The notes under the pieces: model-generated
Told to the model about the DNA's origin: nothing
Seen by the model: only the letters and a program-made list of their open reading frames with translations
The model's database searches: none
Source: Bacillota bacterium
GTDB lineage: Bacteria; Bacillota; Clostridia; Lachnospirales; Lachnospiraceae
Direction: 5' to 3'
Length of the DNA: 64,000 bases
Assembly (NCBI GenBank): GCA_902363515.1
Contig: CABJAN010000018.1
Coordinates: forward strand, 1 to 64,000
Program-made: the position numbers and the translations under genes
Part shown: positions 6,609-20,812 of the stretch, piece by piece
How positions within the stretch are numbered: the stretch's first letter is position 1
Layout: each line of letters opens with the position of its first letter

Positions 6609-7286
6609 ATGCGTTTACTGTTGGCTGAAGATGAAAAAGCGTTATCAAAGGCTCTGGTGGCGATTTTGGAAAGAAATAACTATTCGGTAGATGCGGTTTA
6701 TGATGGTCAAAGTGCATTGGATTATCTGGAAATGGATAATTATGATGGAGTTATCTTAGATATTATGATGCCAAAGGTAGATGGACTTACCGTATTAAGA
6801 AAAGTCCGGGAAAAGGGAAATTTGATACCGATTCTTCTACTGACAGCAAAGTCAGAAGTGGATGATAAGGTGGAAGGATTGGATGCAGGAGCCAATGATT
6901 ATCTGGCAAAACCATTTCATTCAAAGGAATTGCTGGCAAGAATACGTGCTATCACACGGACACAGGCTGCGCAGACAAATTCCAAGCTGACTATGGGAAA
7001 TGTGACATTGGACCGAGCTACTTTTGAACTTTCTACTGCAAAAGGAAGCTTCCGGCTTGCCAATAAAGAATTTCAAATGTTAGAGCTTTTAATGTGCAAT
7101 CCTCATCAATTAATTTCCTCAGAACGTTTCCTGGAAAAAATATGGGGATATGACAGTGAAGCAGAAATCAATGTGGTATGGGTTTATATTTCTTATCTGA
7201 GGAAAAAATTATCTGCCCTCCACGCAGATATCCAAATCAAAGCCACAAGAAACGCAGGATATTTACTGGAGGAGAATCCGTCATGA
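6609..7286 (+). CDS. OmpR/PhoB-type response regulator
   Basis: A 225-residue DNA-binding response regulator. The receiver domain (about 1-115) has acidic pocket E7/D8, phospho-acceptor D51 in LDIMMPK, T in LLTAK, and K in LAKPF. A winged-helix output domain (about 125-222) includes RLANKEFQMLELLM and the WVYISYLRKKL recognition region. It forms a two-gene operon with the sensor kinase: the stop TGA overlaps the kinase ATG as ATGA. The tandem TTAAG box upstream suggests autoregulation. The same box precedes the htrA-like gene and the VTC operon, which are therefore likely targets. Confidence 0.92.
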   Translation: MRLLLAEDEKALSKALVAILERNNYSVDAVYDGQSALDYLEMDNYDGVILDIMMPKVDGLTVLRKVREKGNLIPILLLTAKSEVDDKVEGLDAGANDYLAKPFHSKELLARIRAITRTQAAQTNSKLTMGNVTLDRATFELSTAKGSFRLANKEFQMLELLMCNPHQLISSERFLEKIWGYDSEAEINVVWVYISYLRKKLSALHADIQIKATRNAGYLLEENPS

Positions 7287-8500
7287 TCAAAAAACTTCGT
7301 ATCAAATTAATCGCTGCATCTATGGCTTCACTTTTTTTCGTTCTTTTTGTGATTGGAGGAATCGTAGGCATTTTAAATTACAGGAAAATCGTGGCAGATG
7401 CTGATTGGGTACTTGAAATTCTGGAGGAAAATGCCGGGAAATTTCCGCAAAAATTCCCAGGAAACAGAAAAGATGACAGACCAGGAATGTCACCGGAAGT
7501 TCCTTACGAATCCAGATATTTTTCTGTCCTGCTTGATGAAAACGGGGGTATTATTTTAACAGATACTTCAAAGATTGTGGCCATTGATACAACCCAGGCA
7601 ATAGAATATGCTTCAGAAGTTTGGGAAAAGAAAAGCGAACAGGGATTTCTGGAGAATTACCGGTATTGGAGATGCTCTTCTAATGGGGAGGTGCGTATTA
7701 TTTTTCTGGATTGCAGGCGGCAGCTGGACAATTTCCGAAACTTTTTGCTTACAACGTTTGGTGTTTCAAGTATTGGTCTTTTATCTGTGTTTATTTTAAT
7801 GGTTTATTTATCTGCCCGTATTGTAAAGCCATTCTCTGATAATTATGAGAAACAGAAGCGTTTTATTACCGATGCAGGGCATGAACTAAAGACTCCATTG
7901 ACCATTATTGAAGCTGATACAGAGGTTTTGGAAATGGATTTTGGAGAAAACGAATGGCTTCAAGATATCCAAGGACAGACAAAACGGCTTGCAGATCTGA
8001 CCAATACCCTTGTTATGCTTTCCCGTATGGAAGAGGGACAGAACAACAATATGAAAGTAGAGTTTCCTCTGTCCGATATGGTGGAAGAAGTATGCCACAC
8101 CTTTCAGGCTCCGGCAAAGGTACAGGAAAAAGGCTTAACCAGCGCCATTGAACCAATGATATCCATGAAGGGGGATGAAAAAGCAATCCGGGGTCTCATA
8201 ACCATTCTCCTTGACAATGCAGTAAAATACACCAATGAAAAGGGGCAGATTTCTGTTACTTTAGAAAAGAGAAAGAATCGCATCTGCCTGTCTGTTTTTA
8301 ATACAACAGAATATATTTCAAAAGAACAGATATCTCATTTATTTGACCGTTTTTACCGTACAGATGAATCCAGAAATTCCCAGACTGGCGGATATGGATT
8401 AGGACTTTCTATTGCAGCAGCTACGGTAGAGTCTCATAAAGGGAAAATCTTTGCGGAAACAAGGGATGAAAAATCCTTGCAGATTACGGTGGTGTTCTGA
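7283..8500 (+). CDS. Membrane sensor histidine kinase
   Basis: A 405-residue HisKA/HATPase kinase. A membrane helix lies at about 8-30, then a short extracytoplasmic sensor of roughly 120 residues, and a second helix at about 155-178. The phospho-acceptor is H200 in DAGHELKTPLTII; the N box is LLDNAVKYTNEKG and the G2 box GGYGLGLS. A HAMP domain is not obvious between helix two and the H box, so the linker is short. The ATG overlaps the response regulator stop, with GGAGGAG inside that gene's last codons; longer upstream frames are spurious. The signal is unknown, but the proposed regulon (HtrA protease and surface-polymer genes) suggests envelope stress. Confidence 0.92.
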   Translation: MIKKLRIKLIAASMASLFFVLFVIGGIVGILNYRKIVADADWVLEILEENAGKFPQKFPGNRKDDRPGMSPEVPYESRYFSVLLDENGGIILTDTSKIVAIDTTQAIEYASEVWEKKSEQGFLENYRYWRCSSNGEVRIIFLDCRRQLDNFRNFLLTTFGVSSIGLLSVFILMVYLSARIVKPFSDNYEKQKRFITDAGHELKTPLTIIEADTEVLEMDFGENEWLQDIQGQTKRLADLTNTLVMLSRMEEGQNNNMKVEFPLSDMVEEVCHTFQAPAKVQEKGLTSAIEPMISMKGDEKAIRGLITILLDNAVKYTNEKGQISVTLEKRKNRICLSVFNTTEYISKEQISHLFDRFYRTDESRNSQTGGYGLGLSIAAATVESHKGKIFAETRDEKSLQITVVF

Positions 8501-8526
8501 GAAGAAATGTTAGGTGGTGTATCTTT

Positions 8527-9267
8527 ATGTGGATTAGAGCAAAAAATAACCAATTAGAATACCGAAATTGGGTGAACAGCCTATATATCGCATTGCTCTG
8601 GTTCCTCCCACTGTTCCTGATTGGATGGAATCTCTGGAAAAAAATAAACATTGTATACGAAATCAATAAGTTTTCGTCAATAATTTTTATTTCCTACTGT
8701 GTGGTCGGAATTTTGACCTTTTTATCAGCTAATTTTGTCTATGCACTCATAGATGATACTTGGGAAACCACTTTGGCAGATGGAAACTACAGAGTTGGGT
8801 TTTCTACAGGTTCTAAAAGTGAATACTATTATGCTGAACCGGTAAATATATTTTCAAGAAGAAGGTTTGAGTGGACAGTTGAAAAATATGCAGAGAGTTT
8901 ATCGAAAGTATATCATGCAAAATTCCAATATATGGGAGATGATGACGGTAATCCACAATTCATTTCCCCTGAGTATGAGGATATTACTGTAACCGTCTAT
9001 GGAGTGGATGACAGTGGAGAAAATGCACTTGATGAAGATTTTTGCTTTATGGTTACATCCTCAAGGCTGAAGCAGGAATGGGATACTTTTTTCACAAATG
9101 GGGAGGAATGTGTATTATATTATCAGGATTATTATTATAAAAGTGCGCAGCGAAATCCTGTTTATGCTGTTGTAGTATATCGAGACAGAATGAATCTGAT
9201 TATATTGGGACAAGGAATATTCCATACGGAGAAAAAAACAGTAGTTGGATTTATGACGCAAGCGTAA
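8527..9267 (+). CDS. Unrecognised two-helix membrane protein
   Basis: A 246-residue protein I cannot assign. Two hydrophobic helices lie at about 17-37 and 49-71, followed by a soluble region of about 175 residues. That region is rich in tyrosine, phenylalanine and acidic residues, with several predicted beta strands (ITVTVYGVDDSG, NPVYAVVVYRD). AGGTGG about 10 nt upstream supports ATG 8527. It begins 26 nt after the kinase stop on the same strand and is probably co-transcribed, so it could be an accessory of the two-component system. Its sequence is more AT-rich than its neighbours, which may hint at recent acquisition. The function is unknown. Confidence 0.6.
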   Translation: MWIRAKNNQLEYRNWVNSLYIALLWFLPLFLIGWNLWKKINIVYEINKFSSIIFISYCVVGILTFLSANFVYALIDDTWETTLADGNYRVGFSTGSKSEYYYAEPVNIFSRRRFEWTVEKYAESLSKVYHAKFQYMGDDDGNPQFISPEYEDITVTVYGVDDSGENALDEDFCFMVTSSRLKQEWDTFFTNGEECVLYYQDYYYKSAQRNPVYAVVVYRDRMNLIILGQGIFHTEKKTVVGFMTQA

Positions 9268-9322
9268 AGGGAGATGATATTTTATCTGAGTTGGAATCAG
9301 AATTTTAGAAAGTTTTAGCTAA

Positions 9323-9337
9323 TGATAATAAAAATCA
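9323..9337. promoter_or_regulatory. Fur-box-like palindrome upstream of feoA
   Basis: TGATAATAAAAATCA matches the 7-1-7 Fur consensus (TGATAAT-N-ATTATCA) at 12 of 14 defined positions and lies within a larger inverted repeat TAATGAT/ATCATTA at 9320-9340. It is 10 bp upstream of the feoA -35. AT-richness makes chance similarity possible. Confidence 0.4.
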
Positions 9338-9346
9338 TTAAGTCTA

Positions 9347-9378
9347 TTGACAAAAAAAGTCAATTAAATTAGACTAAC
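9347..9378 (+). promoter_or_regulatory. feoA promoter with overlapping DtxR-like operator
   Basis: TTGACA (9347-9352) and TAGACT (9370-9375) are 17 bp apart. The 16-bp sequence ATTAAATTAGACTAAC at 9363-9378 covers the -10. It matches the operators at 9695 and 15202, with the -10 at the same internal position as at 15202. This is a repressor arrangement, fitting an iron-dependent DtxR-type regulator. Confidence 0.65.
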
Positions 9379-9437
9379 TAAAGTAATAAATATATAACTC
9401 ATAGAAATACTTCAAGTATGGAAGGGATAGGGGCGAG

Positions 9438-9656
9438 ATGTTTATGAATCTATCAGAAGCAAAAGAAGGGAAAGAATATATTGTAAAAGCTATATTGACA
9501 GATGACGAAGAATTAAATGAATTTCTATTTTCATTAGGATGTTACAGTGGTGAACCTATCACTGTCATTGCACATCGAAAAGGTGGATGCGTAGTGTCTA
9601 TTAAAGATGGAAGATACAATATTGATACTGATTTAGCACAAGCTATATCAATATAA
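9438..9656 (+). CDS. feoA: Ferrous iron transport protein FeoA
   Basis: A 72-residue SH3-like FeoA protein: MNLSEAKEGKEYIVKAI start, hydrophobic core LNEFLFSLGCYSGEPITVI, and the closing YNIDTDLAQAISI. FeoA is a small cytosolic partner needed for FeoB-dependent ferrous iron uptake. ATG 9444, two codons in, is 10 nt from AGGGG and may be the true start, since 9438 is only 4 nt away. It lies upstream of feoB with a small hairpin between them. The promoter carries a DtxR-like operator and a Fur-box-like palindrome. Confidence 0.88.
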   Translation: MFMNLSEAKEGKEYIVKAILTDDEELNEFLFSLGCYSGEPITVIAHRKGGCVVSIKDGRYNIDTDLAQAISI

Positions 9657-9662
9657 AAAAAT

Positions 9663-9684
9663 AGTGATTACAGTCACTTTTTTT
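9663..9684 (+). terminator. Weak terminator or attenuator between feoA and feoB
   Basis: A short stem AGTGA/TCACT with a 6-nt loop is preceded by an A run and followed by T7. It could uncouple feoA and feoB levels. With so few G-C pairs it is probably leaky. Confidence 0.45.
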
Positions 9685-9694
9685 AAAAGAACTG

Positions 9695-9710
9695 GTTAGA
9701 CAAAACTAAT
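9695..9710. promoter_or_regulatory. DtxR-like operator upstream of feoB
   Basis: GTTAGACAAAACTAAT matches the 16-bp site found at the feoA and DUF3793 promoters. No good -10 overlaps it, so it may act as a roadblock or extra repressor site inside the feoA-feoB transcript. It ends 25 bp before the feoB ATG. Confidence 0.5.
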
Positions 9711-9734
9711 CAAAGGTTGAAGGAGAGTTTGAAT

Positions 9735-11732
9735 ATGAGGATTGCGTTAACGGGAAATCCTAATAGTGGGAAAACAACCATGTATAATGCGCTTACAGGA
9801 AGGAACGAGCGTGTGGGGAATTGGGCTGGCGTTACAGTGGAGAAAAAAGAGGGCCTGATCAAAAAGGGATATTTTGACGGTTCAGAAGAATTAGTAGCGG
9901 TGGATCTGCCGGGTGCTTATTCAATGTCTCCGTTTACGTCTGAAGAGAGCATTACTAGCAGTTATGTAAAACACGAAAATCCGGATGCGATCATCAATAT
10001 TGTGGATGCCACAAACCTGAGCAGGAGTTTGTTTTTTACAACCCAGCTTCTGGAACTTGGGATTCCAGTGGTAGTTGCCCTGAATAAAAGTGATCTTACA
10101 GAAAAGAAAAAAACAGAAATCAATGTAAAGAAATTGGCAGAGAAATTAGGTTGTCCAGTCATTCAAACTGTCTCAACCGCTTCGGGACATGAAGGGTTAA
10201 AGGAAGTGGTAAATCAGGCTGCTACATTAAAAGGCTGTGTACAGAAAGCTCCTTATGTGCAGGCAGATATTAATCTGCAGGATAAAGCACAGGTTGAGGC
10301 GGCAGACAGAAAACGATTTACATTTGTAAATGAAATTGTAGAAGCTGTAGAGAAGAGAAAAGTTTTCACAAGAGAGAAAAACAAACAGGACAGCATTGAT
10401 CAGGTGCTTACAAACAAATTTGTAGGAATCCCAATTTTTGCGGCAATCATGTTCGCTGTATTTTACATCTCTCAGTCAACAGTGGGAACGTGGCTTGCGA
10501 ACTGGCTGGTTGGCTGGATAGAGGCATTCCAGGGCTGGGTTGCCGGTCTGGTGGAAGGGGCAAATCCATTTCTGCAGGCACTGCTGGTGGATGGTATCAT
10601 CGGCGGCGTAGGTGCTGTAGTAGGTTTCCTGCCGCTGGTAATGGTAATGTATTTTCTCATTGCCCTCTTGGAAGACTGCGGATATATGGCTCGTGCTACC
10701 GTTGTGTTAGACCCGATTTTTAAGAGGGTAGGACTTTCCGGAAAGTCAGTGATTCCCATGGTTATTGGAACGGGATGTGCAATTCCGGGTATTATGGCCT
10801 GCCGTACTATTCGTAATGAAAGGGAAAGAAGAGCAACAGCCATGCTGACGCCTTTTATGCCTTGTGGTGCAAAGCTGCCGGTGATTGCATTGTTTGCCGG
10901 AGCGTTCTTTGCAGATGCTTCCTGGGTCGGACCAACCATGTATCTTGTTGGGGTTGTATTGATCTTCTTAGGAGCATTATTAGTGAAGAAAATTACAGGA
11001 TATAAATTCCGTAAATCTTTCTTTATCATTGAACTTCCGGAGTATAAAATTCCGAGCCTGAAACGTGCCACGCTTTCCATGCTTGCTCGTGGTAAAGCCT
11101 ATATTGTGAAAGCCGGAACTATTATTTTAGTATGTAACACCGTTGTACAGATTATGCAGAGCTTTAACTGGCAGTTTGAGGTAGTAGAAGAAGGAATGGA
11201 GCATACTTCCATTCTGGCATCCATTGCCTCTCCGTTTGCAGTGCTTTTAGTTCCTCTTGGATTTGGCGTATGGCAGCTTGCAGCGGCAGCTATTACAGGT
11301 TTTATTGCAAAAGAAAACGTAGTTGGTACACTGGCTGTTGTCTATGGACTGACCAACTTTATTGATACGGATGAATTGGCGCTGGTTGGCGGGGCGAATG
11401 AAGTGGCAACAGTTATGGGGCTTACCAAAGTAGCAGCCCTTGCCTATCTGATGTTTAATCTTTTTACGCCGCCTTGCTTTGCAGCTCTTGGCGCTATGAA
11501 TTCTGAAATGCAGGATAAAAAATGGCTGTGGGGTGGAATTGCCTTACAATTATGTACCGGATATACAGTGGCGTTTTTTGTATATCAGATTGGTACACTC
11601 GTGACAACAGGAACACTTGGAGCAGGATTTGCTCCGGGCTTGATTGCAGTGGCTGTATTTGCAGCAATATTAATTGTACTGGTGCAAAAAAAGGAAAAAG
11701 CATTCAATGCAGAGTACCGTTTGCACGCATAG
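9735..11732 (+). CDS. feoB: Ferrous iron transporter FeoB
   Basis: A 665-residue FeoB with the N-terminal G-protein domain: G1 GNPNSGKTT, the GNWAGVTVEKKEG switch region, G3 DLPGAYS and G4 NKSD. A helical GDI-like segment follows, then the membrane domain from about residue 225, with the two Gate repeats (including CGAKLPVIALFAGAFF) and a hydrophobic C-terminus. It imports Fe2+ across the cytoplasmic membrane. ATG 9735 is 9 nt downstream of AAGGAG and starts MRIALTGNPN, as in homologues; the in-frame TTG at 9717 would place the ribosome site inside the gene. It sits between feoA and the Fur-DtxR fusion regulator, and a DtxR-like operator lies just upstream. Confidence 0.95.
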   Translation: MRIALTGNPNSGKTTMYNALTGRNERVGNWAGVTVEKKEGLIKKGYFDGSEELVAVDLPGAYSMSPFTSEESITSSYVKHENPDAIINIVDATNLSRSLFFTTQLLELGIPVVVALNKSDLTEKKKTEINVKKLAEKLGCPVIQTVSTASGHEGLKEVVNQAATLKGCVQKAPYVQADINLQDKAQVEAADRKRFTFVNEIVEAVEKRKVFTREKNKQDSIDQVLTNKFVGIPIFAAIMFAVFYISQSTVGTWLANWLVGWIEAFQGWVAGLVEGANPFLQALLVDGIIGGVGAVVGFLPLVMVMYFLIALLEDCGYMARATVVLDPIFKRVGLSGKSVIPMVIGTGCAIPGIMACRTIRNERERRATAMLTPFMPCGAKLPVIALFAGAFFADASWVGPTMYLVGVVLIFLGALLVKKITGYKFRKSFFIIELPEYKIPSLKRATLSMLARGKAYIVKAGTIILVCNTVVQIMQSFNWQFEVVEEGMEHTSILASIASPFAVLLVPLGFGVWQLAAAAITGFIAKENVVGTLAVVYGLTNFIDTDELALVGGANEVATVMGLTKVAALAYLMFNLFTPPCFAALGAMNSEMQDKKWLWGGIALQLCTGYTVAFFVYQIGTLVTTGTLGAGFAPGLIAVAVFAAILIVLVQKKEKAFNAEYRLHA

Positions 11733-11741
11733 AAAAATATT

Positions 11742-11780
11742 CAGAAAGCCTGCACCTTAATAAAGAGTGTGGGCTTTCTG
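11742..11780 (+). terminator. Hairpin after feoB, probable terminator
   Basis: Arms CAGAAAGCC and GGCTTTCTG extend inward with mismatches to 14 bp around an 11-nt loop. The downstream sequence TTCATAAAT is a poor U tract, so read-through into the regulator gene is plausible. Confidence 0.5.
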
Positions 11781-11811
11781 TTCATAAATCACAAGAAAAG
11801 AGGTGGCGTCT

Positions 11812-12495
11812 GTGGGCGGTTGTTGGGAAAATAAATCTTGGGATTTTGCCAGAACAGAAATGACAAAGGAGAATATTTTCTGTGAATTAAGAGAGAAAGG
11901 CGGTCGGATTACCAAACAGAGAAAAATACTTTTGGATATCATTTTGGAGGGACAATGTACTTGCTGTAAAGATATCTACTACAAAGCGATAAAACGTGAT
12001 CCTACAATTGGAATTGCAACCGTTTATCGAATGATTAGTACTCTGGAAGATATAGGAGCAATAAGCAGAAACAAGATGTATGAAATCCAGTATCAGGAAG
12101 AAGTTTCAGAAAGAAAAAGATTTATTATGCAGTTAGGTCAATCCATGGAAGATTATCTGAAAACTATTTTTGTACTGCAGAAACAACAGATGGAAGTTCG
12201 TAATATCCAGATTGCTGAAATAATGGGGTGTTCAAAACCAAGCGTCACAGTAGCAATTAATGCATTGGAAGAAAAAGGATATGTGGAACAAAAAACACAC
12301 GGAAATCTCTGTCTGACATTAAAAGGAACAGAACTGGCAAATAAGATATTGAATCGACATCTTTTTTTTCAGAAAATCCTGTTGGAAGCAGGAATTGAAC
12401 AACAGCAGGCAGAGAAAGAGGCTTGTATGTTGGAACATGTTTTATCGGAGGAAAGTATCAATAAATTGAGAGTATATATGGAGAAGGAAAAGTAA
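11812..12495 (+). CDS. Fur-DtxR fusion metalloregulator (FezX-like)
   Basis: A 227-residue protein that joins two metalloregulator modules. The first (about residues 17-95) is a Fur-type winged helix: GGRITKQRKILLDIIL, then GIATVYRMISTLEDIGAIS; the Fur dimerisation and metal domain is missing. The second (about 100-227) is DtxR/MntR-like: SMEDYLKTI, a helix-turn-helix with CSKPSVTVAINALEEKGYV, NRH, and EACMLEHVLS. The Cys-x2-Glu-His pattern matches the iron-type site of DtxR rather than MntR. GTG 11812 has GAGG 8 nt upstream; GTG 11803 and ATG 11860 are alternatives. It lies between feoB and the ferrosome-like genes and probably represses them and the operators listed here. Confidence 0.82.
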   Translation: MGGCWENKSWDFARTEMTKENIFCELREKGGRITKQRKILLDIILEGQCTCCKDIYYKAIKRDPTIGIATVYRMISTLEDIGAISRNKMYEIQYQEEVSERKRFIMQLGQSMEDYLKTIFVLQKQQMEVRNIQIAEIMGCSKPSVTVAINALEEKGYVEQKTHGNLCLTLKGTELANKILNRHLFFQKILLEAGIEQQQAEKEACMLEHVLSEESINKLRVYMEKEK

Positions 12496-12617
12496 GAACA
12501 TTGAGCCTGAGAACATAAAGCATATTGTTATCGAGAAAATATTTCATTAAAAAAGAAAGGCTTTGACCTGACATATATGCGGGAATATAATGAAAAAGCC
12601 AGAGAAGAGGTGATAGA

Positions 12618-12698
12618 ATGAAGCAGCATAAATTTTGGGCATGGGCAATGATTGGTTGCCTTGTTATGTTATTCTATACCGGAAAGCATCACAAATAA
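12618..12698 (+). CDS. 26-residue single-helix membrane peptide
   Basis: A tiny frame with the sequence start MKQHKFWAWAMIG, a short hydrophobic core (CLVMLFYTG) and a basic end KHHK. GAGG 9 nt before the ATG is a good ribosome site, and the codons look used rather than random. It resembles very short proteins annotated in Lachnospiraceae as DUF6219, from memory. It sits between the Fur-DtxR regulator and the DUF6110-like gene, so it may be a small subunit of the iron compartment or transporter. The spacer 12496-12617 before it shows no clear gene, though some frames look peptide-like and might be decayed coding sequence. Confidence 0.6.
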   Translation: MKQHKFWAWAMIGCLVMLFYTGKHHK

Positions 12699-12730
12699 GA
12701 AGTCAAAGAAGACAGAAATGGAGGACACAC

Positions 12731-13027
12731 ATGAATATTTTAAAATTTAAAAATCTTGCATTATTTGCAGGAGGGGTATTATTTGGTACAGCGGGAATTA
12801 AAATCTTATGCAGTAAAGATGTGAAAAAAGTATATGTGGAAGGAACAGCCGCTGTTCTTAGAGCAAAGGATTGTGTTATGAAAACGGTGGAATCTGTTCA
12901 GGAAAATGCAGAAGATATTCTGGCAGAAGCAAAGCAGGTGAATGAGAAGCGTGCAGCAGAGGAAGAGGCTGCTGTGCAGGAAGATGCTGTTGCAGATGAT
13001 GCAGATTCCGAAACAGAGGAAGTGTGA
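12731..13027 (+). CDS. DUF6110-like small membrane protein (FezA-like candidate)
   Basis: A 98-residue protein. One membrane helix (about 8-27) contains glycine spacing typical of packed helices (AGGVLFGTAG). A helical alanine/lysine/glutamate region follows, then a strongly acidic tail (about 78-98). GGAGG lies about 8 nt before ATG 12731; the longer upstream frame is spurious. It ends at TGA 13027 and the ATPase starts with TTG on the very next base. In ferrosome loci a small membrane protein, FezA, directly precedes the P1B-6 ATPase FezB. Position, size and topology fit, but assignment as FezA is inference. Confidence 0.75.
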   Translation: MNILKFKNLALFAGGVLFGTAGIKILCSKDVKKVYVEGTAAVLRAKDCVMKTVESVQENAEDILAEAKQVNEKRAAEEEAAVQEDAVADDADSETEEV

Positions 13028-15109
13028 TTGAAGTTTATTATAAAGCATGAAATTCCGGGTAGAATCCGTATTCATATGGTACAGAAACAAATGTCCTGTA
13101 AAGAGGCTGATGCATTACTGTATTATTTGAATACGCTGGAATATGTCTCGCAGGCAAAGGTTTACAGAAGGACGGCCGATGCCTGCGTTTGCTTTGTGGG
13201 GAAAAGAGAGCCGCTGATTCTGGCCTTAAGAAAATTCCAATATACGTCCTTAGAAATTCCGGATGAAGTATTTATGAATTCGGGAAGACAGTTAAATGAT
13301 GCTTATCAGGAAAAGCTGGTTAGGAAAGTTTGTTTCCACTTTGCAGGAAAACTATTCTTACCGGCTCCATTGAGAAAAGCTGTAATTTTGTGGAAGGCAG
13401 TACATTATCTGAAAGAAGGATGGAAAAGTATTGCCAGGAGAAAGCTGGAGGTAGCAGTATTAGATGCATCAGCGATTGGCATCTCGGTTTTGCGAAGCGA
13501 TTTTAGCACAGCTTCTTCTGTCATGTTCCTTCTGGGGGTTGGGGAAATATTGGAGGAATGGACACATAAGAAATCCGTAGGAGATCTGGCACGCAGTATG
13601 GCTTTAAATACTGAAAAAGTCTGGTTGAAAAGCGGAGAGCAGGAAGTGCTTGTGGATTCCAAAAAAATTGAAGAAGGAGACCATGTTATTGTTCGCATGG
13701 GAAATATCATTCCTTTTGACGGAGTAGTACTTGATGGAGAAGGAATGGTAAACCAGTCTTCCCTTACAGGCGAACCTCTGCCTGTTCTGAAAGCAGCAGG
13801 AGGATATCTATATGCAGGAAGTGTTTTGGAAGAGGGAGAATTGGTTTTTGCTGTGAAAAAAGTCGGGGGCTCCTCGCGGTATGCGAAGATTGTAGAGATG
13901 ATCGAAGAATCTGAAAAGCTGAAATCTTCAGTAGAAGGAAAGGCAGAAAGACTTGCAGACAGATTGGTTCCTGTTACTTTTGCAGGAACAGCCCTTACAT
14001 GGCTTTTAACAAGAAATATCACGAAAGCTCTTGCAGTACTTATGGTAGACTTTTCCTGTGCATTAAAGCTTACGATGCCCATTACCGTTTTATCGGCAAT
14101 CCGTCAGGCCGGGGCTTATGATATTGCTGTAAAAGGCGGTAAATTTTTAGAAGCAGTGGCAGAGGCAGAAACAATCGTATTAGATAAAACAGGTACTCTT
14201 ACAGAAGCAAAGCCGGTTGTAAAAGTGGTGGTTCCTTTTTGTGAAGAAGAGGAAAACGAGCTGCTTCGTATTGCAGCCTGTCTGGAAGAGCATTTCCCAC
14301 ATTCTATGGCAAAAGCGGTTGTGTCGGCTGCAAAGCAGGCAGGGCTCGAACACGAGGAAATGCATTCTAAAGTGGAATATATTGTGGCCCATGGTATTTC
14401 CTCCAGTATAGCAGGAAAGCGTGTTTTGATAGGAAGTGCACATTTTGTTTTTGAAGATGAAAAGTGTATCGTGCCGGAGCAATATCAGGATAGATTTATG
14501 AAACTTCCAGAAGAATATTCTCAGCTCTATCTGGCAATAGACGGTGTTCTTGCAGCAGTAATCTGTATTGAAGATCCGTTGCGTCAGGAAAGTGCAAGTG
14601 TAATAAGTGCCCTGCGGTCAGCAGATTTTCGGAAAATTGTTATGATGACGGGAGACAGCGAGCGTACTGCGGCGGCAGTTGCCAAAAAAGTAGGAGTTGA
14701 TGAGTATTACTCAGAGGTATTACCGGAAGATAAAGCCGGATATATTGAGCGGGAAAAAGCAAAAGGAAAGAAAGTCCTTATGGTAGGGGATGGAATCAAT
14801 GATTCACCTGCTCTTTCCGCAGCGGATGCAGGAATTGCAGTCGGTGATGGCTCAGAACTTGCCAGGGAAATTGCGGATATTACAATTTCTGCAGGCAATC
14901 TGTATCAGATTGTGCAGTTGAAACATCTGAGTCAGGAATTGATGAAAAAGATAAACAGAAATTACAGGGAAATTGTAGGTATTAATACCATGCTTATTCT
15001 TTTGGGAGTAGGAGGAATCATACAGCCTACGACTACGGCAATGCTCCATAATATATCGACTGTAGTAATCAGTCTGCAGAGTATGCAAAATCTTCCGGAA
15101 ATAAAATAA
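13028..15109 (+). CDS. P1B-type metal ATPase with SCA motif (FezB-like)
   Basis: A 693-residue P-type ATPase. The N-terminus (about 1-75) is HMA-like but lacks CxxC, beginning with IPGRIRIHM. Actuator TGEP is at 247-250 and the phosphorylated aspartate D386 is in DKTGTLT. An HPHSMA motif and MVGDGINDSP complete the catalytic domain. In the metal-binding membrane helix the usual CPx is replaced by SCA at 343-345 (DFSCALKL), as I recall for P1B-6 ATPases, which include the ferrosome pump FezB. TTG 13028 abuts the upstream stop, with GAGG inside the previous gene. A strong terminator follows. Iron is the inferred substrate, from the context of feoAB, the Fur-DtxR regulator and flavodoxin. Confidence 0.88.
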   Translation: MKFIIKHEIPGRIRIHMVQKQMSCKEADALLYYLNTLEYVSQAKVYRRTADACVCFVGKREPLILALRKFQYTSLEIPDEVFMNSGRQLNDAYQEKLVRKVCFHFAGKLFLPAPLRKAVILWKAVHYLKEGWKSIARRKLEVAVLDASAIGISVLRSDFSTASSVMFLLGVGEILEEWTHKKSVGDLARSMALNTEKVWLKSGEQEVLVDSKKIEEGDHVIVRMGNIIPFDGVVLDGEGMVNQSSLTGEPLPVLKAAGGYLYAGSVLEEGELVFAVKKVGGSSRYAKIVEMIEESEKLKSSVEGKAERLADRLVPVTFAGTALTWLLTRNITKALAVLMVDFSCALKLTMPITVLSAIRQAGAYDIAVKGGKFLEAVAEAETIVLDKTGTLTEAKPVVKVVVPFCEEEENELLRIAACLEEHFPHSMAKAVVSAAKQAGLEHEEMHSKVEYIVAHGISSSIAGKRVLIGSAHFVFEDEKCIVPEQYQDRFMKLPEEYSQLYLAIDGVLAAVICIEDPLRQESASVISALRSADFRKIVMMTGDSERTAAAVAKKVGVDEYYSEVLPEDKAGYIEREKAKGKKVLMVGDGINDSPALSAADAGIAVGDGSELAREIADITISAGNLYQIVQLKHLSQELMKKINRNYREIVGINTMLILLGVGGIIQPTTTAMLHNISTVVISLQSMQNLPEIK

Positions 15110-15123
15110 GTATGAAAACAAAG

Positions 15124-15158
15124 ACAGTGGCTATCATTTGAGACAGCCGCTGTTTTTT
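15124..15158 (+). terminator. Terminator of the ferrosome-like operon
   Basis: Stem ACAGTGGCT/AGCCGCTGT (one G-U pair) with a 12-nt loop, followed directly by T5. Confidence 0.8.
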
Positions 15159-15185
15159 AATGAGAAATCTTCTCTTTATGCGACA

Positions 15186-15217
15186 TTGACATAGAACAGA
15201 GGTTAGTGTAAACTAAC
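15186..15217 (+). promoter_or_regulatory. Iron-operator promoter of the DUF3793-flavodoxin operon
   Basis: TTGACA (15186-15191) and TAAACT (15209-15214) are 17 bp apart. The perfect palindrome GTTAGT-GTAA-ACTAAC at 15202-15217 covers the -10, exactly as at feoA. It is the best-conserved copy of the site shared with 9363 and 9695. Confidence 0.75.
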
Positions 15218-15276
15218 TCTATAAATGATTCTGAAAAACGGTTGTGTATAAAATATTTTGGGAGGATTTAGAATAT

Positions 15277-15831
15277 ATGGGATTTGAAAAATTATTGATT
15301 GCCCACTGTTCCCCGACACTTGCGTCTTTAAAAATTGCGAATCTTTTTTCTTATTCGTTTGAAACAGAAAAAGAACTGATAAACAGTGTGGGATATTGGA
15401 ATACACAAATGGATAAAACGGGAATATGTCTGCATATATTGCGAAAAAGAAATCGAAAAGCGTTAATCTATGTCTGCCGCTGTGCTAAATTGGAAAGATG
15501 CCTGAAAGATAAGCAGGTTACGAAATTTTTAAGTACATACGGATATACAGACATGGATATTGACAGCGTTTTGGCACACTTGAAAGAGCGGTTAAGTATC
15601 AATGAGGAATTCCCACATGAGATTGGGGTTTTTCTGGGGTATCCATTAGAGGATGTAATGGGATTCATTCATCATAATGGAAAAAACTTTCAGCTTTCCG
15701 GTATGTGGAAGGTATACGGAAATAAGGAAGACGCAGAGGAAAAATTTGGAAAATATAAAAAGTGTACGGATATCTATCTGCGTTTGTGGAACAGTGGAAG
15801 GAGTGTTCAGCAGCTTACTGTAGCGGCTTGA
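15277..15831 (+). CDS. DUF3793 family protein
   Basis: A 184-residue cytoplasmic protein with the family's N-terminal FEKLLIAHCSPTLASLKIANLF and the internal FPHEIGVFLGYPLEDVMGFI motif. The molecular function is not known. Members occur in anaerobic Firmicutes next to flavodoxin and iron-uptake genes, as here, where flavodoxin follows after 31 nt. ATG 15277 has GGAGG 11 nt upstream and matches the usual N-terminus; a GTG 33 nt earlier would add an unconserved extension. The promoter carries a perfect DtxR-like operator on its -10, so expression should rise when iron is scarce. Confidence 0.85.
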   Translation: MGFEKLLIAHCSPTLASLKIANLFSYSFETEKELINSVGYWNTQMDKTGICLHILRKRNRKALIYVCRCAKLERCLKDKQVTKFLSTYGYTDMDIDSVLAHLKERLSINEEFPHEIGVFLGYPLEDVMGFIHHNGKNFQLSGMWKVYGNKEDAEEKFGKYKKCTDIYLRLWNSGRSVQQLTVAA

Positions 15832-15862
15832 CATAAATAAAAATATTTTCAGGAGGACAGAC

Positions 15863-16303
15863 ATGAGTAAAATAGCAGTTGTATATTGGAGTGGAACAGG
15901 AAATACAGAAGCCATGGCATCGGCAGTTCTACAGGGAATTAAGAAAAGTAATGCAGAAGGCATTTTGTATTCTTGCGATGAGTTCAGCGCGGATTTATTA
16001 AAAGAGTATGAAGCAGTAGCTTTTGGCTGCCCGGCCATGGGAGATGAAGTTTTAGAAGAGAGTGAGTTTGAGCCGATGTTTGAGTCCTGCGTAAGTTCAC
16101 TAAGTGGAAAGAAGGTTGCCTTGTTTGGTTCGTATGGATGGGGCGATGGAGAGTGGATGAGGAGCTGGGAAGAACGGTGTGAAAATAATGGAATCCATCT
16201 GGTCGGTGAAGGGGTCATTTGCAACGAAATGCCTGATGAGGAAGGGCTCATGCAGTGTGAAAAATTAGGGGAAAGGCTGGTAGAAGAAAGTGAGAGAAAA
16301 TGA
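15863..16303 (+). CDS. Flavodoxin
   Basis: A 146-residue short-chain flavodoxin. WSGTGNTEAMA forms the FMN phosphate loop near residue 10, FGCPAMGDE is the second FMN-contact loop, and FGSYGWGDGEW supplies an aromatic stacking residue. Flavodoxins replace ferredoxin as a low-potential electron carrier when iron is limiting. This fits its place behind DUF3793 under a promoter with the iron operator. AGGAGG lies about 8 nt before ATG 15863. A strong terminator follows at 16343. Confidence 0.92.
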   Translation: MSKIAVVYWSGTGNTEAMASAVLQGIKKSNAEGILYSCDEFSADLLKEYEAVAFGCPAMGDEVLEESEFEPMFESCVSSLSGKKVALFGSYGWGDGEWMRSWEERCENNGIHLVGEGVICNEMPDEEGLMQCEKLGERLVEESERK

Positions 16304-16342
16304 GTAGTTTATTGCCAGAGAAATGATTTATATATTTATGAT

Positions 16343-16384
16343 AAAAGGGGCTGTCGGTCAATTTTCCGATAGCCCTTTTTTGTT
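16343..16384 (+). terminator. Strong terminator after flavodoxin
   Basis: Stem AAAAGGGGCTGTCGG/CCGATAGCCCTTTT with an 8-nt loop and one G-T pair, ending in a T6 run. Confidence 0.88.
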
Positions 16385-16409
16385 CAGTATTTCAGAAATG
16401 ATGATTCTT

Positions 16410-16440
16410 TAAAGTGTAATTAAGGTAAAGGTTGTAAGCT
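16410..16440 (+). promoter_or_regulatory. Tandem TTAAG box and promoter of the htrA-like gene
   Basis: TAAAG (16410, one mismatch) and TTAAGG (16420) are 10 bp apart, with TAAGCT (16435-16440) 15 bp after the second repeat as a possible -10. The layout is the same as at 6541 and 17467. Confidence 0.55.
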
Positions 16441-16477
16441 ATTCCCATCAAAAGAGAAAAAACAGGAGGAACTGCAA

Positions 16478-17446
16478 ATGTATAAAGAAGAAAAATCATA
16501 TCTGAATGAAAGAAATAGACGGAGACAACTGCAAAGGCGCCGGAAAAAAAGAAAAATATGGAATATGGCAGCAACCTTAACCTTAAGTGCCCTTCTTTTT
16601 GGAACAGTAGCAGGCAGTACCGGCTATGCTGTGGAGCAATATCTTGCAGGGAAAAAAGACGAAGCAACAATAGCACAAAATACAGGCAGTGACACAGATA
16701 CAACTGTATTATCCTTATCTGCAACAACAAATTCCAGCACTGATCAGTTCAGTGTAACGGAAATCGCAGCTTCCGGTCTTTCTTCTGTGGTTTCTGTAAC
16801 AAACATATCCGTACAGGAAGTAGAAGATTATTTTGGTGGACATGGAGGAAACCGGAACAGACCGTTTGCTCCTTCGCAGACAGAAGAAACTGTAAGCTGC
16901 GGCTCTGGAATTATTTTATACGAAGAGGATTCCCAGCTCTATATGTTGACCAATTATCATGTGGTAGAGGGTGCTTCTTCTCTTTCAGTGACCTTTGTAG
17001 ATGATGAGACGTATGAGGCTGTTTTGTGCGGTTATGATGAGGATACCGATCTGGCAGTGCTTAAAGTGGATATCTCTGCGTTATCAGAATCCACATATTC
17101 ACAAATCCACGTGGTAGAACTTGGGGATTCGGATGCTTTGGAGGTAGGTGAGCAGGTTGTGGCCATTGGAAATGCCCTGGGTTATGGACAGTCCGTTACA
17201 ACAGGAATCGTCAGTGCAGTCAATCGTTCTATTCGTGAAAATACCCAGTCCTCTTCTCTTGGCTATATCCAGACAGATGCAGCAATTAATCCCGGAAATA
17301 GCGGTGGCGCTTTATTAGATATGGAAGGAAAACTGGTGGGCATCAATACAGCAAAAATCTCTTCCACAGAGGTAGAAGGCATCGGTTATGCAATTCCCAT
17401 TTCCCAGGTGCTAGAGCTGGTGGCATCCCTGATGGAAGAAAATTGA
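16478..17446 (+). CDS. Membrane-anchored HtrA-like serine protease without PDZ domain
   Basis: A 322-residue trypsin-like protease. A very basic cytoplasmic tail (about 10-27) precedes one membrane helix (about 30-48), so the protease faces outward. The catalytic triad is H161 (TNYHVV), D191 (DEDTDLAVL) and S275 (NPGNSGGAL). HtrA/DegP proteins normally carry at least one C-terminal PDZ domain; this one ends about 45 residues after the serine, at the edge of the protease fold. Substrate choice must therefore work without PDZ binding. AGGAGG lies 7 nt before ATG 16478. The TTAAG box upstream links it to the two-component system at 6609-8500. Confidence 0.9.
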   Translation: MYKEEKSYLNERNRRRQLQRRRKKRKIWNMAATLTLSALLFGTVAGSTGYAVEQYLAGKKDEATIAQNTGSDTDTTVLSLSATTNSSTDQFSVTEIAASGLSSVVSVTNISVQEVEDYFGGHGGNRNRPFAPSQTEETVSCGSGIILYEEDSQLYMLTNYHVVEGASSLSVTFVDDETYEAVLCGYDEDTDLAVLKVDISALSESTYSQIHVVELGDSDALEVGEQVVAIGNALGYGQSVTTGIVSAVNRSIRENTQSSSLGYIQTDAAINPGNSGGALLDMEGKLVGINTAKISSTEVEGIGYAIPISQVLELVASLMEEN

Positions 17447-17466
17447 TGGAGGAATTTAAAAGATTT

Positions 17467-17497
17467 TTAAGTTAAATTAAGGTTAAGAAAGTATTTT
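17467..17497 (+). promoter_or_regulatory. Tandem TTAAG box and promoter of the VTC operon
   Basis: TTAAG (17467) and TTAAGG (17477) lie 10 bp apart, followed by a further TTAAG at 17483, with TATTTT (17492-17497) 15 bp after the second repeat. This is the best copy of the box seen at 6541 and 16410. Confidence 0.65.
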
Positions 17498-17529
17498 ATA
17501 TATGTAAAATACAAAACAGGAGGAACACT

Positions 17530-18249
17530 ATGGCCTATCAAATGACCTTTAAGCGTTATGAATTAAAATACCTGCTGAACAGGCAGGAAAAGGAACAGGT
17601 ACTTCTGGCAATGCAGCCCTATATGAAGCTGGATGATTATGGAAGAACCATTATAAGAAATATTTATTTTGATACGGATACCTTCCGGCTCATCCGGCGT
17701 TCACTGGAAAAACCAGTATATAAAGAGAAGCTCCGCATCCGAAGCTATAAGCCAGTACAGACAAGCGATCCGGTATTTGTAGAAATCAAGAAAAAATACA
17801 AATCTGTGGTTTACAAGCGGAGATTGCAGCTTCCGGAAGAGAAAGTTATGGAAAGTTTTCAGACAGGAACTCCCCTTCCAGTACATTCCCAAATCGGAGA
17901 TGAAATTCAGTATTTTCGTGATTACTATGAAAACCTGCACCCGTCCGTATTTTTATCTTATGAAAGGGAAGCCTATTATTCCCTGGATGGCAGTGACTTT
18001 CGGGTAACTTTTGATGAAAATATTCTTTACCGAAGGAAGGATTTTTCTCTCGGCAGTGAAATTTATGGCGTTTCATTGCTGGGTGAAGACCGGACATTAA
18101 TGGAAATTAAAACTTCCGGCGGGATTCCCCTCTGGATGAGTGAAACACTTACCAAACATCATTTATATAAAACATCATTTTCAAAATATGGTTCTGCTTA
18201 TCAGTGTATGCTGGCAGAATCTTTACAGGGAGGATATAACAATGTCTAA
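17530..18249 (+). CDS. VTC-domain polyphosphate polymerase-like protein
   Basis: A 239-residue soluble VTC-fold protein. The tunnel-fold motifs appear in order: RYELKYLL (about 9-16), NIYFDT, KLRIRSY (basic residues for triphosphate binding), FVEIKKK, SYEREAY, FRVTFDENI, LMEIKT and SFSKYGSAY near the end. Yeast VTC4 makes polyphosphate from ATP; the bacterial proteins are annotated as polyphosphate polymerases, but activity is rarely shown. AGGAGG lies 6 nt before ATG 17530. Its last 8 nt overlap DUF4956, its usual partner. It is the first gene of a long operon with surface-glycan functions. Confidence 0.88.
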   Translation: MAYQMTFKRYELKYLLNRQEKEQVLLAMQPYMKLDDYGRTIIRNIYFDTDTFRLIRRSLEKPVYKEKLRIRSYKPVQTSDPVFVEIKKKYKSVVYKRRLQLPEEKVMESFQTGTPLPVHSQIGDEIQYFRDYYENLHPSVFLSYEREAYYSLDGSDFRVTFDENILYRRKDFSLGSEIYGVSLLGEDRTLMEIKTSGGIPLWMSETLTKHHLYKTSFSKYGSAYQCMLAESLQGGYNNV

Positions 18250-18937
18250 TACTTTATTTCAGGGAATTTTTGATACGGATATGACCAGTGTGATTTCTAT
18301 TTCGGATTTTTTATTATGCGTGGGATGTGCCCTTGTGATTGGCCTGATTTTAACAGGTACTTATATGTATGGAACCAAATATACCAAAAGCTTTGTGGCA
18401 ACCCTGGCCTTGCTTCCGGCAGTAGTCTGTGTGGTCATTATGATGGTCAACGGAAATGTGGGAACCGGCGTGGCGGTTGCAGGAGCCTTCAGCCTGGTGC
18501 GTTTCCGTTCTGTTCCCGGTTCAGCAAAAGAAATCGGTGCGATTTTCCTGGCTATGTGCTCCGGTCTGGTAGCGGGAATGGGTTATCTGGCCTATGCGCT
18601 GTTATCTGCACTGATTCTTGGCGGAATCATGCTGCTGTATAACCGTATGGATTTTGGAACAAGAAAACATGGATTACGTTATAAGACCTTACATATTACC
18701 ATACCGGAAGATTTGGATTACAGTGGGGTATTCGACAAAATCTTAAAGAAATATACCACAGATTACGAAGTTGTACAGATTAAAACCACTAACATGGGAA
18801 GCTTATTTAAACTTACTTATAACCTGACATTAAAAGATCCTGTAAAGGAAAAAGAACTCATTGATGCTCTCCGGTGCAGAAATGGAAATCTGGAGATTAC
18901 TATGTGCAGGCAAGAAACGGTAATCGGAGAATTATAG
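18242..18937 (+). CDS. DUF4956 membrane protein
   Basis: A 231-residue protein with about four membrane helices in the first 140 residues (SDFLLCVGCALVIGLILTG and onward) and a C-terminal cytoplasmic alpha/beta domain of about 90 residues. The loop GAFSLVRFRSVPGSAKEIG is the conserved family signature. DUF4956 proteins usually sit beside VTC-domain proteins and may form the membrane channel or scaffold through which a VTC product passes, as in yeast VTC; this role is unproven. ATG 18242 overlaps the VTC stop by 8 nt and lies behind GGGAGG, so translation is coupled. Confidence 0.88.
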   Translation: MSNTLFQGIFDTDMTSVISISDFLLCVGCALVIGLILTGTYMYGTKYTKSFVATLALLPAVVCVVIMMVNGNVGTGVAVAGAFSLVRFRSVPGSAKEIGAIFLAMCSGLVAGMGYLAYALLSALILGGIMLLYNRMDFGTRKHGLRYKTLHITIPEDLDYSGVFDKILKKYTTDYEVVQIKTTNMGSLFKLTYNLTLKDPVKEKELIDALRCRNGNLEITMCRQETVIGEL

Positions 18938-18958
18938 AAATATAGGAGATGATGACCA

Positions 18959-20812
18959 ATGCGTAAAAGAGAAATTTTATTGTTTTTCATGATGGGTACT
19001 ATGATGTTGTCCGGCTGTAGCAAACAGACGGAACAGAACACACAGCAAAACACAGAGCAAAGCACAGAATCCTCTTCTGCAGTAAACAATGGGGTTACAG
19101 AAATAGATACTGCTGATATGTTTTCTGACCGCGACAAAGAAGTTGGATATGAAGAGTCAGAAAGTGTTGTCATTTCTCTGGCTGATAATGGTTCTTCCTG
19201 TGAGTCAGATGCTGTGTCCATTACAGAAAATACCGTGACAATTAAAGAAGAAGGAACGTACATTCTTTCCGGTTCGCTATCAAACGGGATGGTAATCGTG
19301 GAAGCAGAGGATACAGATAAAATTCAGCTGGTTTTGAACGGTGTAAGCATCTCCAGTTCCCAGTCGGCGGCTCTGTATGTCCGCTCTGCAGATAAAGTGT
19401 ATGTCACCACTGTTTCCGGAACAGAAAACAGCCTGGAACATAGCGGTACTTATACTGCTATCGATGAAAATAATATTGATGCAGCAGTATTTTCAAAATC
19501 AGATCTGACCTTTAATGGAGAAGGAATGCTTACCGTTACAGCCCAGGAGGGACATGGGATCGTATCAAAGGATGATCTGGTGCTGACAAGTGGAACTTAT
19601 GTAATCACCAGCGCCAGTCACGGGATTTCAGGAAAGGACAGTGTCCGTATTGCCAATGGTTCTTACACCATTGTATCTGGAAAGGATGGAATCCATGGGG
19701 AAAATACAGAGGACAGCAGCCTTGGTTTTGTCTATCTTGCAGGAGGAACTTTTGACATTAAATCCCAGCAGGACGGAATCAGTGCCAGCTCATGGTTACA
19801 GGCAGAAGACGGAACCTATACGATTCTGACAGGAGAGGGCAGTGCCAGTGTACAAAATCAGAATGATGGAGACAGGAAATCCATGGAACAGACAGCCCAG
19901 GAGGAAACAGACGAAGATACTACCAGCATCAAGGGAATGAAAGCAGCTACACAAATGGTATTAAAAGGCGGTACCTACACCATTGACGCAGAAGATGATA
20001 CTTTTCATTCCAATGGAAATCTTGCTATCCATGGAGGCACTTATACATTGTCATCAGGAGATGATGGAATTCACGCTGATTCCAATGTAACCATTTCCGG
20101 CGGAACCATAGACGTTGCAAAAAGCTACGAAGGAATCGAAGGGCTGAGTATCGATGTTACAGGCGGTGAGATTTCTGTACTGGCATCGGATGATGGGATG
20201 AATGCAGCAGGAGGAAACGACAGCAGCGGTTTTGAAGGGCCAGGGGGAGATCAGTTTGCATCCACAGAAGGAGCTTATATTCATATTTCAGGAGGTATGC
20301 TTCATGTAAATGCCTCTGGAGATGGAATGGATTCCAATGGAGATATTACGGTAGCAGGAGGTGAAACGTATGTCTTTGGACCTACCAATGACGGAAATGG
20401 AAGTTTAGACTACAGTGGAGACGCCCAGATAACAGGTGGTATCTTTGCAGCATCCGGTTCCTCTGGTATGGCACAAGGTTTTGGCTCTTCTTCCACCCAG
20501 GGCGTTATTATGGTGAATGTAGAGGAACAGGAAACGAATACGGAGATTGCACTTCTGGATATCAGCGGTACAGAGCTTCTTGGCTGGACAGCAGAAAAGG
20601 AATATTCTTCTGTGATTGTAAGCAGCCCGGAAATCCAGCAGGGAGAAACCTATACCCTAAAAGCCGGAACAGAAGAACAGAGTATTACCATGGACAGTCT
20701 GGTTTATGGAAATCATTCTCAAGGAGGTGGTCCTGGAAGCAACGGTGAAGAAAGAGGAGGAATGAAAGAAGGCGGTATGCAAGGCGAACCGGGGAAAGGA
20801 GGAAGGCACTGA
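18959..20812 (+). CDS. Cthe_2159-like carbohydrate-binding lipoprotein
   Basis: A 617-residue secreted lipoprotein. The signal peptide ends in LSGC with lipidated C20, followed by a Gln/Thr/Ser-rich linker. From about residue 90 to 520 it consists of repeating short strands with GGTYTI- and DDGIHADSNVTISGG-type turns, a parallel beta-helix like the acidic-polysaccharide-binding protein Cthe_2159 of Clostridium thermocellum. The C-terminus is glycine-rich and charged. CotH kinases often occupy this slot in VTC/DUF4956 operons; here the beta-helix protein takes it. It could bind calcium and uronic-acid or other anionic polymers at the cell surface. GGAGATG precedes ATG 18959, and its stop overlaps the next start. 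Confidence 0.8.
   Translation: MRKREILLFFMMGTMMLSGCSKQTEQNTQQNTEQSTESSSAVNNGVTEIDTADMFSDRDKEVGYEESESVVISLADNGSSCESDAVSITENTVTIKEEGTYILSGSLSNGMVIVEAEDTDKIQLVLNGVSISSSQSAALYVRSADKVYVTTVSGTENSLEHSGTYTAIDENNIDAAVFSKSDLTFNGEGMLTVTAQEGHGIVSKDDLVLTSGTYVITSASHGISGKDSVRIANGSYTIVSGKDGIHGENTEDSSLGFVYLAGGTFDIKSQQDGISASSWLQAEDGTYTILTGEGSASVQNQNDGDRKSMEQTAQEETDEDTTSIKGMKAATQMVLKGGTYTIDAEDDTFHSNGNLAIHGGTYTLSSGDDGIHADSNVTISGGTIDVAKSYEGIEGLSIDVTGGEISVLASDDGMNAAGGNDSSGFEGPGGDQFASTEGAYIHISGGMLHVNASGDGMDSNGDITVAGGETYVFGPTNDGNGSLDYSGDAQITGGIFAASGSSGMAQGFGSSSTQGVIMVNVEEQETNTEIALLDISGTELLGWTAEKEYSSVIVSSPEIQQGETYTLKAGTEEQSITMDSLVYGNHSQGGGPGSNGEERGGMKEGGMQGEPGKGGRH

Follow-up and report, generated by a model that had tools for sequence, protein, structure and literature searches.

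A likely ferrosome-family iron locus in a gut Lachnospiraceae bacterium, with a conserved micropeptide and a Fur domain grafted on DtxR

The iron-related locus described here lies on a 64,000-nucleotide (nt) stretch of DNA from a Bacillota bacterium of the Lachnospiraceae (assembly GCA_902363515.1, contig CABJAN010000018.1, positions 1 to 64,000), to which we refer as the window, and it is best introduced through two described systems, namely the ferrosome (fez) clusters and the PacL1-CtpC platform of M. tuberculosis. Ferrosome clusters share their gene order with this locus, and FezB is a P1B-6 pump. In C. difficile the membrane protein FezA and the transporter FezB have been reported as required for ferrosome formation, and Fur is described as a repressor of fezAB (PMC12574912); FezC, a cytochrome known from some fez clusters, is not named for C. 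difficile in the passages cited here. As for the mycobacterial platform, CtpC, the partner of PacL, is reported to export zinc, and an HN motif is given as a P1B6 feature (PMC9374683). Clustering of PacL is stated to need conserved transmembrane (TM) residues, including two glycines, and DUF6110 proteins paired with P1B6 pumps have been termed PacL-like by the authors of that work (PMC13043812).

In the window, genes for FeoA, FeoB, a regulator, a 26-residue peptide, a 98-residue protein, a metal ATPase, a DUF3793 protein and a flavodoxin follow one another on the same (+) strand, on which all features named below also lie. An original prediction, made from this DNA alone, had singled out the middle four as a ferrosome-like locus; these genes do sit in a row at 11812-12495, 12618-12698, 12731-13027 and 13028-15109, and the peptide, like the pairing of DUF6110 with the ATPase, is found again in many genomes, beyond chance. 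What can be regarded as established is that a P1B-6 pump and its DUF6110 partner are encoded in an iron context. Membership in the ferrosome family is likely, with the likeness to FezA and FezB drawn from descriptions of these proteins rather than from their sequences, and ferrosome formation, known here from genes alone, is the likeliest use of the locus. Its new parts are a conserved micropeptide and a stepwise Fur-DtxR graft. In the mechanism that we propose, and that we regard on balance as somewhat probable, the locus would serve this gut Lachnospiraceae bacterium as an island for iron homeostasis: Fe(II) would enter through FeoAB; a FezB-like P1B-6 pump, clustered by a DUF6110 partner with a glycine-rich helix, would remove Fe(II) from the cytosol, with a compartment of the ferrosome type as the most likely destination; the 26-residue transmembrane peptide from the same operon would assist pump or partner in the way supposed for KdpF; and the iron-loaded regulator would repress feoAB and the DUF3793-flavodoxin genes through its DtxR part and act through its Fur part at the fez promoter, from a position suited to activation.

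The FezB-like ATPase starts with a TTG codon on the base directly after the stop codon TGA (13025-13027) of the DUF6110 gene, and its product matches the heavy-metal P-type ATPase family TIGR01525 with an expectation value (E) of 2.3e-147. SCA is the TM4 motif of P1B-6 pumps, and TM4 here reads MVDFSCALKL, with SCA in the place of CPx, followed in TM6 by LHNISTVV (LHNxST). Residues 1-150 contain no CxxC, and the N-terminus, with KHEIPGRIRIH, is predicted to form a beta-alpha-beta-beta-alpha, ferredoxin-like fold (mean predicted local distance difference test 71), in a model whose predicted template modelling score (pTM) of 0.52 does not support fine detail. SCA in the place of CPx and an HMA-like N-terminus without CxxC had been noted in the original prediction. 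Of 29 pumps collected, all from frames of at least 550 residues, the 27 that exceed 620 residues were used for a tree, and two shorter ones were dropped. Here the pump falls in a 19-row clade of DUF6110-linked pumps with support of 100/100, one member coming from Deinococcus; the sister to this clade (99/99) is a Rhodococcus pump beside a DUF1490 gene, but with CPC. Outside lie E. coli CopA and ZntA, PbrA, two S. meliloti pumps and two other pumps of a relative. By its SCA and LHNxST motifs, the lack of CxxC and its place in the tree, the pump belongs to the P1B-6 class, as had been proposed, and the phylogeny keeps it apart from CopA, ZntA and PbrA. Together, SCA and this placement rule out a CPx-type exporter of Cu or Zn. 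That the cargo is some other metal altogether (Mn, Zn or Cu) appears very unlikely: P1B pumps are diverse and zinc is handled by the CtpC-like pumps, which are of the sister type, but this pump has neither CPx nor CxxC and its neighbours are feoAB, DUF3793 and flavodoxin genes along with regulators and boxes of the iron type.

The partner of the pump, the FezA-like protein of 98 residues, is a DUF6110 protein (PF19605, E 7.1e-39) with one helix, which contains GGVLFGTAG, and an acidic tail without histidine. It is widespread, with 7985 homologues among 7999 scored candidates, the nearest named one (99%) in a metagenome-assembled genome called Blautia producta. DUF6110 was found in 127 of the 299 genomes of a relative's family (125 over the cut-off) and in 18 of the 243 genomes of a relative's class (14 over the cut-off), and at 18 of 19 places in the class-wide sample a pump accompanies it. 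The coupling was followed further in 64 distinct DUF6110 genes, a non-random set assembled from the regulator scan and from searches for DUF6110, with one gene reached through a peptide match (L139) and one through a plasmid pump match (L158), in which the N-masked gene of L041 is counted once. Directly downstream of 62 of these lies a P1B-6-type pump, which bears out the predicted tie between a one-helix protein with an acidic tail and the ATPase; the other two are L111, whose contig ends 160 bases on, and L091, which has none.

How this partner might work is suggested by its relatives. All nine distant DUF6110 proteins compared match DUF6110 and eight of them also match DUF1490, the PacL family (E limit 10, best 8.5e-7); the window protein itself has no DUF1490 match at E up to 1. 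Because of this kinship and the glycines of the TM helix, we infer that the DUF6110 partner is best seen as a factor that would cluster the pump in the membrane. The same kinship bears on where the iron goes. Since DUF6110 is related to PacL, the partner in an efflux platform, DUF6110 might gather the P1B-6 pump in plasma-membrane patches in the style of PacL-CtpC, with excess Fe(II) exported and no organelle formed, a reading that we consider possible but doubtful. It would agree with the name PacL-like given to these proteins (PMC13043812), with the DUF1490-linked Rhodococcus pump as sister to the DUF6110 clade, and with an activator-like Fur box (see below) that recalls the control of the exporter PfeT. 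Set against it are the window partner itself, which has its acidic tail only and lacks a His-rich C-terminal metal-binding motif, the SCA rather than CPC of the pump, and the reported need for both FezA and FezB in the ferrosomes of C. difficile (PMC12574912). A ferrosome-type compartment is the destination that we prefer. A profile built from the nine distant DUF6110 proteins gave 743 matches, and among the best 120 there is no C. difficile; where these are named, the names include Peptoniphilus, Finegoldia, Anaerococcus and Clostridium.

Ahead of this pair lies the 26-residue single-helix micropeptide (MKQHKFWAWAMIGCLVMLFYTGKHHK, 12618-12698). At 81 nt such a gene is shorter than gene finders usually accept, which would explain why genes of this type go unannotated. 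When a profile of six peptide sequences was run over all frames of the collected loci, 16 matches at 53 to 70 bits were found, representing 13 distinct genes (six of them the sources of the profile), and every one of the 13 lies upstream of DUF6110; the next best match scored 12.4 bits. Eight residues are kept in the 13 aligned peptides: M1 (also counted as M where the start codon is GTG or TTG), K2, H4, W7, A8, M17, T21 and G22. The 299 family genomes contain 47 strong matches (E below 1e-10); by coordinates, 37 of these precede DUF6110 by 30-291 nt (median 51), and reading of the locus adds one more (G269). Across 32 sequences, 23 from upstream of DUF6110 and nine from elsewhere, the ratio of nonsynonymous to synonymous differences (pN/pS) is 0.27 over 496 pairs, the three codon positions differ by 0.28, 0.16 and 0.52, and GTG or TTG is the start, at the same place, in six sequences. 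From pN/pS, the codon-position pattern and the shared alternative starts it follows that the peptide is very likely a translated and selected gene. Profile matches and coding selection also rule out a chance open reading frame (ORF). The peptide had been put forward as a possible extra component of such loci; as a conserved and selected gene it stands, but exclusivity does not, as nine of the 47 strong matches lie away from DUF6110. One of these off-site copies precedes ferritin, DUF3793 and flavodoxin genes and another a gene for a CsoR-type repressor. The former lies in L131:853-3907, where a formate/nitrite transporter gene comes first in the row, ahead of the peptide, and the DUF3793 gene is preceded by a perfect DtxR-type box. 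In L135:3189-4139 a peptide copy and the end of a metallo-beta-lactamase-fold-like protein (likeness scanned in L136) share one reading frame, possibly as a fusion, and L079:7451-7495, just ahead of DUF6110, may be a decayed remnant of a peptide gene.

At the profile level it is clear that the peptide is a single-repeat relative of DUF6219 (PF19727), a family on which nothing was found in the open-licence literature. All 13 peptides match it at E up to 1 (best 1.8e-6), the window peptide with 16.1 bits, under the curated cut-off of 27 bits. Each half of DUF6219 resembles the peptide, but DUF6219 has two tandem helices, its members here having open frames of about 69-99 residues, and the peptide is a single repeat. 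DUF6219 proteins with the doubled motif are among the weaker matches of the peptide profile. Proteins with two tandem peptide motifs occur in L140, L142, L143, L144 and L149, in several copies in some genomes, and the two that were scanned (L140 and L142) are DUF6219. As to function, the peptide likely helps the pump, by analogy with KdpF, which has 30 residues and is supposed to stabilise the KdpABC complex of the Kdp potassium pump (PMC3618439): both are tiny single-helix peptides made with a P-type ATPase, and contact between peptide and pump would here be an analogy only. Alternatively, and in our view less plausibly, the peptide would not be a pump component but a general DUF6219-type membrane micropeptide, or an upstream ORF through which translation of the DUF6110 gene is adjusted. 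The family does occur in other contexts, DUF6219 proteins hold two copies of the motif, and the distance that separates peptide and DUF6110 match ranges from 30 to 291 nt; yet 38 of the 47 strong matches are directly upstream of DUF6110 and the amino-acid sequence is kept more than the DNA. Moreover, both DUF6110 genes of one genome (L091, L103) have the peptide, though L091 is without a pump. The helper role remains the one that we favour.

The second new part is the regulator (227 residues), which starts at GTG 11812, 5 nt past GAGGTGG, the listed GTG at 11803 overlapping that ribosome site. Both the Fur and the DtxR families (the latter as PF01325 and PF02742) score above their Pfam cut-offs. 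The Fur DNA-binding domain spans residues 19-86 or so, followed by a low-confidence linker (88-108) and a complete two-domain DtxR at about 110-226; likewise, a profile search of the PDB returned Fur chains at about 19-109 and DtxR, MntR or IdeR chains at about 109-226. The structure model shows two winged helices and a dimer domain with a low-confidence linker between (at a pTM of 0.48 fine detail is not supported), and the 50 best Foldseek rows are DtxR-family chains or a relative. The C-terminal metal-binding dimer domain of Fur is missing. The DtxR part has both its DNA-binding and its metal-binding dimer domain, with an intact ACMLEH, presumably the C-x-x-E-H ligand motif of DtxR (Cys102, Glu105 and His106). 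The earlier notion of a Fur-DtxR fusion holds in that both families are present, but it is the DNA-binding half of Fur plus both DtxR domains, not two whole regulators. Relatives display several stages: a complete Fur with DtxR as a separate gene after it (L006, L039 and L071), a Fur cut to its DNA-binding part with a separate DtxR gene (L001, L003 and L005; both stages as read from translations), the fused form (the window, L002 and P0124-P0128), and a Fur part with the DtxR dimer domain only (L004, in which the metal motif is altered to ASMLEY, and, by precomputed Pfam, P0129, P0130 and P0132-P0137). As far as its domains tell, the regulator is a Fur DNA-binding domain grafted on a complete DtxR, with intermediate steps in relatives. 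The same fusion in P0124 (99% identical) and in P0125-P0128 rules out a sequencing error. No publication on Fur-DtxR chimeras was found in the open-licence literature, and the name FezX for the fused regulator finds no backing, as no publication on the subject is among the listed results for FezX and related names.

What this regulator may control can be judged from its putative operators. We scanned upstream regions with the DtxR-type motif GTTAGTNTAAACTAAC, derived from the window's own perfect palindrome at 15202-15217 and controlled with shuffled 2-mer blocks, and at up to three mismatches found it ahead of feoA in 34 of 43 cases, feoB in 27 of 50, fur-like genes in 23 of 89 and DUF3793 in 10 of 24 (controls 0.4-0.7%). 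The palindrome (GTTAGTGTAAACTAAC) overlaps the -10 of the promoter-like site before DUF3793 (15186-15214), a placement that looks repressor-like. At feoA, an operator (ATTAAATTAGACTAAC, 9363-9378; three mismatches, more than three by a stricter pattern) overlaps the -10 of the promoter-like site TTGACA-17-TAGACT (9347-9375, from a promoter pattern scan), and a second one with three mismatches (GTTAGACAAAACTAAT, 9695-9710) lies in the gap between feoA and feoB. These boxes at feo promoters, and the order feoB, fur-like gene, DUF6110, pump in 8 of 80 regulator loci (many on short contigs) besides the window, agree with the predicted iron-type regulation linked with feoAB. The peptide, DUF6110 and ATPase genes share a promoter-like site of their own, separate from the regulator (TTGACC-17-TATAAT, 12563-12591, 11 of 12 matches), though such sites are barely enriched overall (21 against 17.6 in shuffles). 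A Fur 7-1-7 type motif (TGATAAAATTTATCA) occurs at up to two mismatches upstream of DUF6110 in 23 of 63 loci (control 0.28%); it was chosen after 22 of the 63 regions had been viewed, and in the remaining 41 it is found in 15 at the same limit, against 0.28% in shuffles. In the 41 loci with a box of up to four mismatches, the best promoter begins 15-16 nt past the box in 15 and 20 nt past it in three, counts that have no shuffle control. The window is among the 15, its degenerate box (CGAGAAAATATTTCA, 12532-12546) ending 16 nt ahead of the -35 at 12563. This spacing puts the Fur-type box near -60, a position that would suit activation. We infer that one protein may both repress uptake and activate storage or efflux.

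Several observations weigh against parts of the proposed mechanism. DUF6110 resembles PacL, whose partner CtpC is a zinc exporter, and several reference pumps in the tree sit on long branches. The peptide, besides its copies elsewhere, is found upstream of 23 of the 64 distinct DUF6110 genes, with no match ahead of the other 41 in the DNA examined. A second stand-alone DtxR is present in all three relatives searched and could serve the same boxes, and a second Fur-family protein in two of the three. The way in which both motifs were obtained counts here too, as does the fact that the loci were mostly fetched through the regulator and are related to each other. Over the whole window the DtxR-type motif is not enriched at up to three mismatches (8 found, 18.4 expected), the window's own feoA operator is weak, and its Fur box, with four mismatches where shuffles of the region average 4.7, is no better than chance. 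Finally, the activator-like box is opposite in sign to the Fur repression described for C. difficile fezAB (PMC12574912). A bolder form of the mechanism strikes us as unlikely: the stepwise graft of Fur on a neighbouring DtxR gene would have made one protein that flips the cell from iron uptake to storage, silencing feoAB through DtxR boxes and switching on fez through an activator-placed Fur-type box, the reverse of C. difficile, and the 26-residue peptide would be an overlooked third fez subunit that shapes or gates the FezB compartment together with FezA.

The remaining genes of the region can be described briefly. The feoA gene (9438-9656; PF04023, E 2.7e-14) is followed by feoB (9735-11732; TIGR00437, E 2.1e-142), which begins at ATG 9735 after GAAGGAGAG, the listed ORF starting at TTG 9717. 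Downstream of the ATPase are the gene for the DUF3793 protein, an iron-locus neighbour (15277-15831, the listed ORF starting at GTG 15244; PF12672, E 7.2e-61), and that for a short-chain flavodoxin (15863-16303; PF00258, TIGR01753). Adjoining the latter is an HtrA-like serine protease (16478-17446), whose weaker matches include the magnetosome proteins MamE and MamO, far under the cut-offs. Upstream of feoA lie a sensor histidine kinase (7178-8500) and a 246-residue protein (8527-9267) without a Pfam match. No FezC-like cytochrome is among the 13 window proteins scanned within 7178-20812, a scan that did not include at least the ORF at 18140-18937. Some 2-6 kb downstream, at 17530-18249 and 18959-20812, are a VTC-domain protein, which we take to be of the polyphosphate polymerase type, and a protein with a Cthe_2159 carbohydrate-binding domain; phosphate polymer genes near a locus of the iron-storage type may be a coincidence.

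The implications reach beyond this one bacterium. With DUF6110 present in so large a share of the family genomes and a pump after nearly all of the DUF6110 genes followed, commensals, and not only a pathogen, may commonly possess iron compartments or platforms for iron efflux. The conserved micropeptide offers a concrete missing part of the machine, the regulator series captures a domain swap between two iron-sensor families at several stages, and the box spacing predicts that iron turns fez on, unlike in the published C. difficile case.

Set beside the described systems, the locus is in part familiar and in part its own. With the fez clusters of C. difficile (FezA and FezB), D. magneticus and R. 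palustris it shares a P1B-6-type pump, a small membrane protein and iron-type regulation, to which the window adds the 26-residue peptide, the fused Fur-DtxR regulator and a Fur-type box upstream of the -35. The PacL1-CtpC platform, as far as its published description goes, has in common with it a one-helix partner that has conserved glycines in its TM segment and a cytosolic part rich in Glu and Ala, and a P1B6-like pump with the HN motif; here, however, the partner is DUF6110 rather than DUF1490 and has no C-terminal metal motif, the pump has SCA instead of CPC, and the context is one of iron and not of zinc. In its control the locus recalls B. subtilis, where Fur and MntR are reported as two-way regulators that repress import and activate efflux, Fur acting directly on the Fe(II) pump PfeT (PMC9993123), but in the window the domains of both families are joined in one polypeptide.

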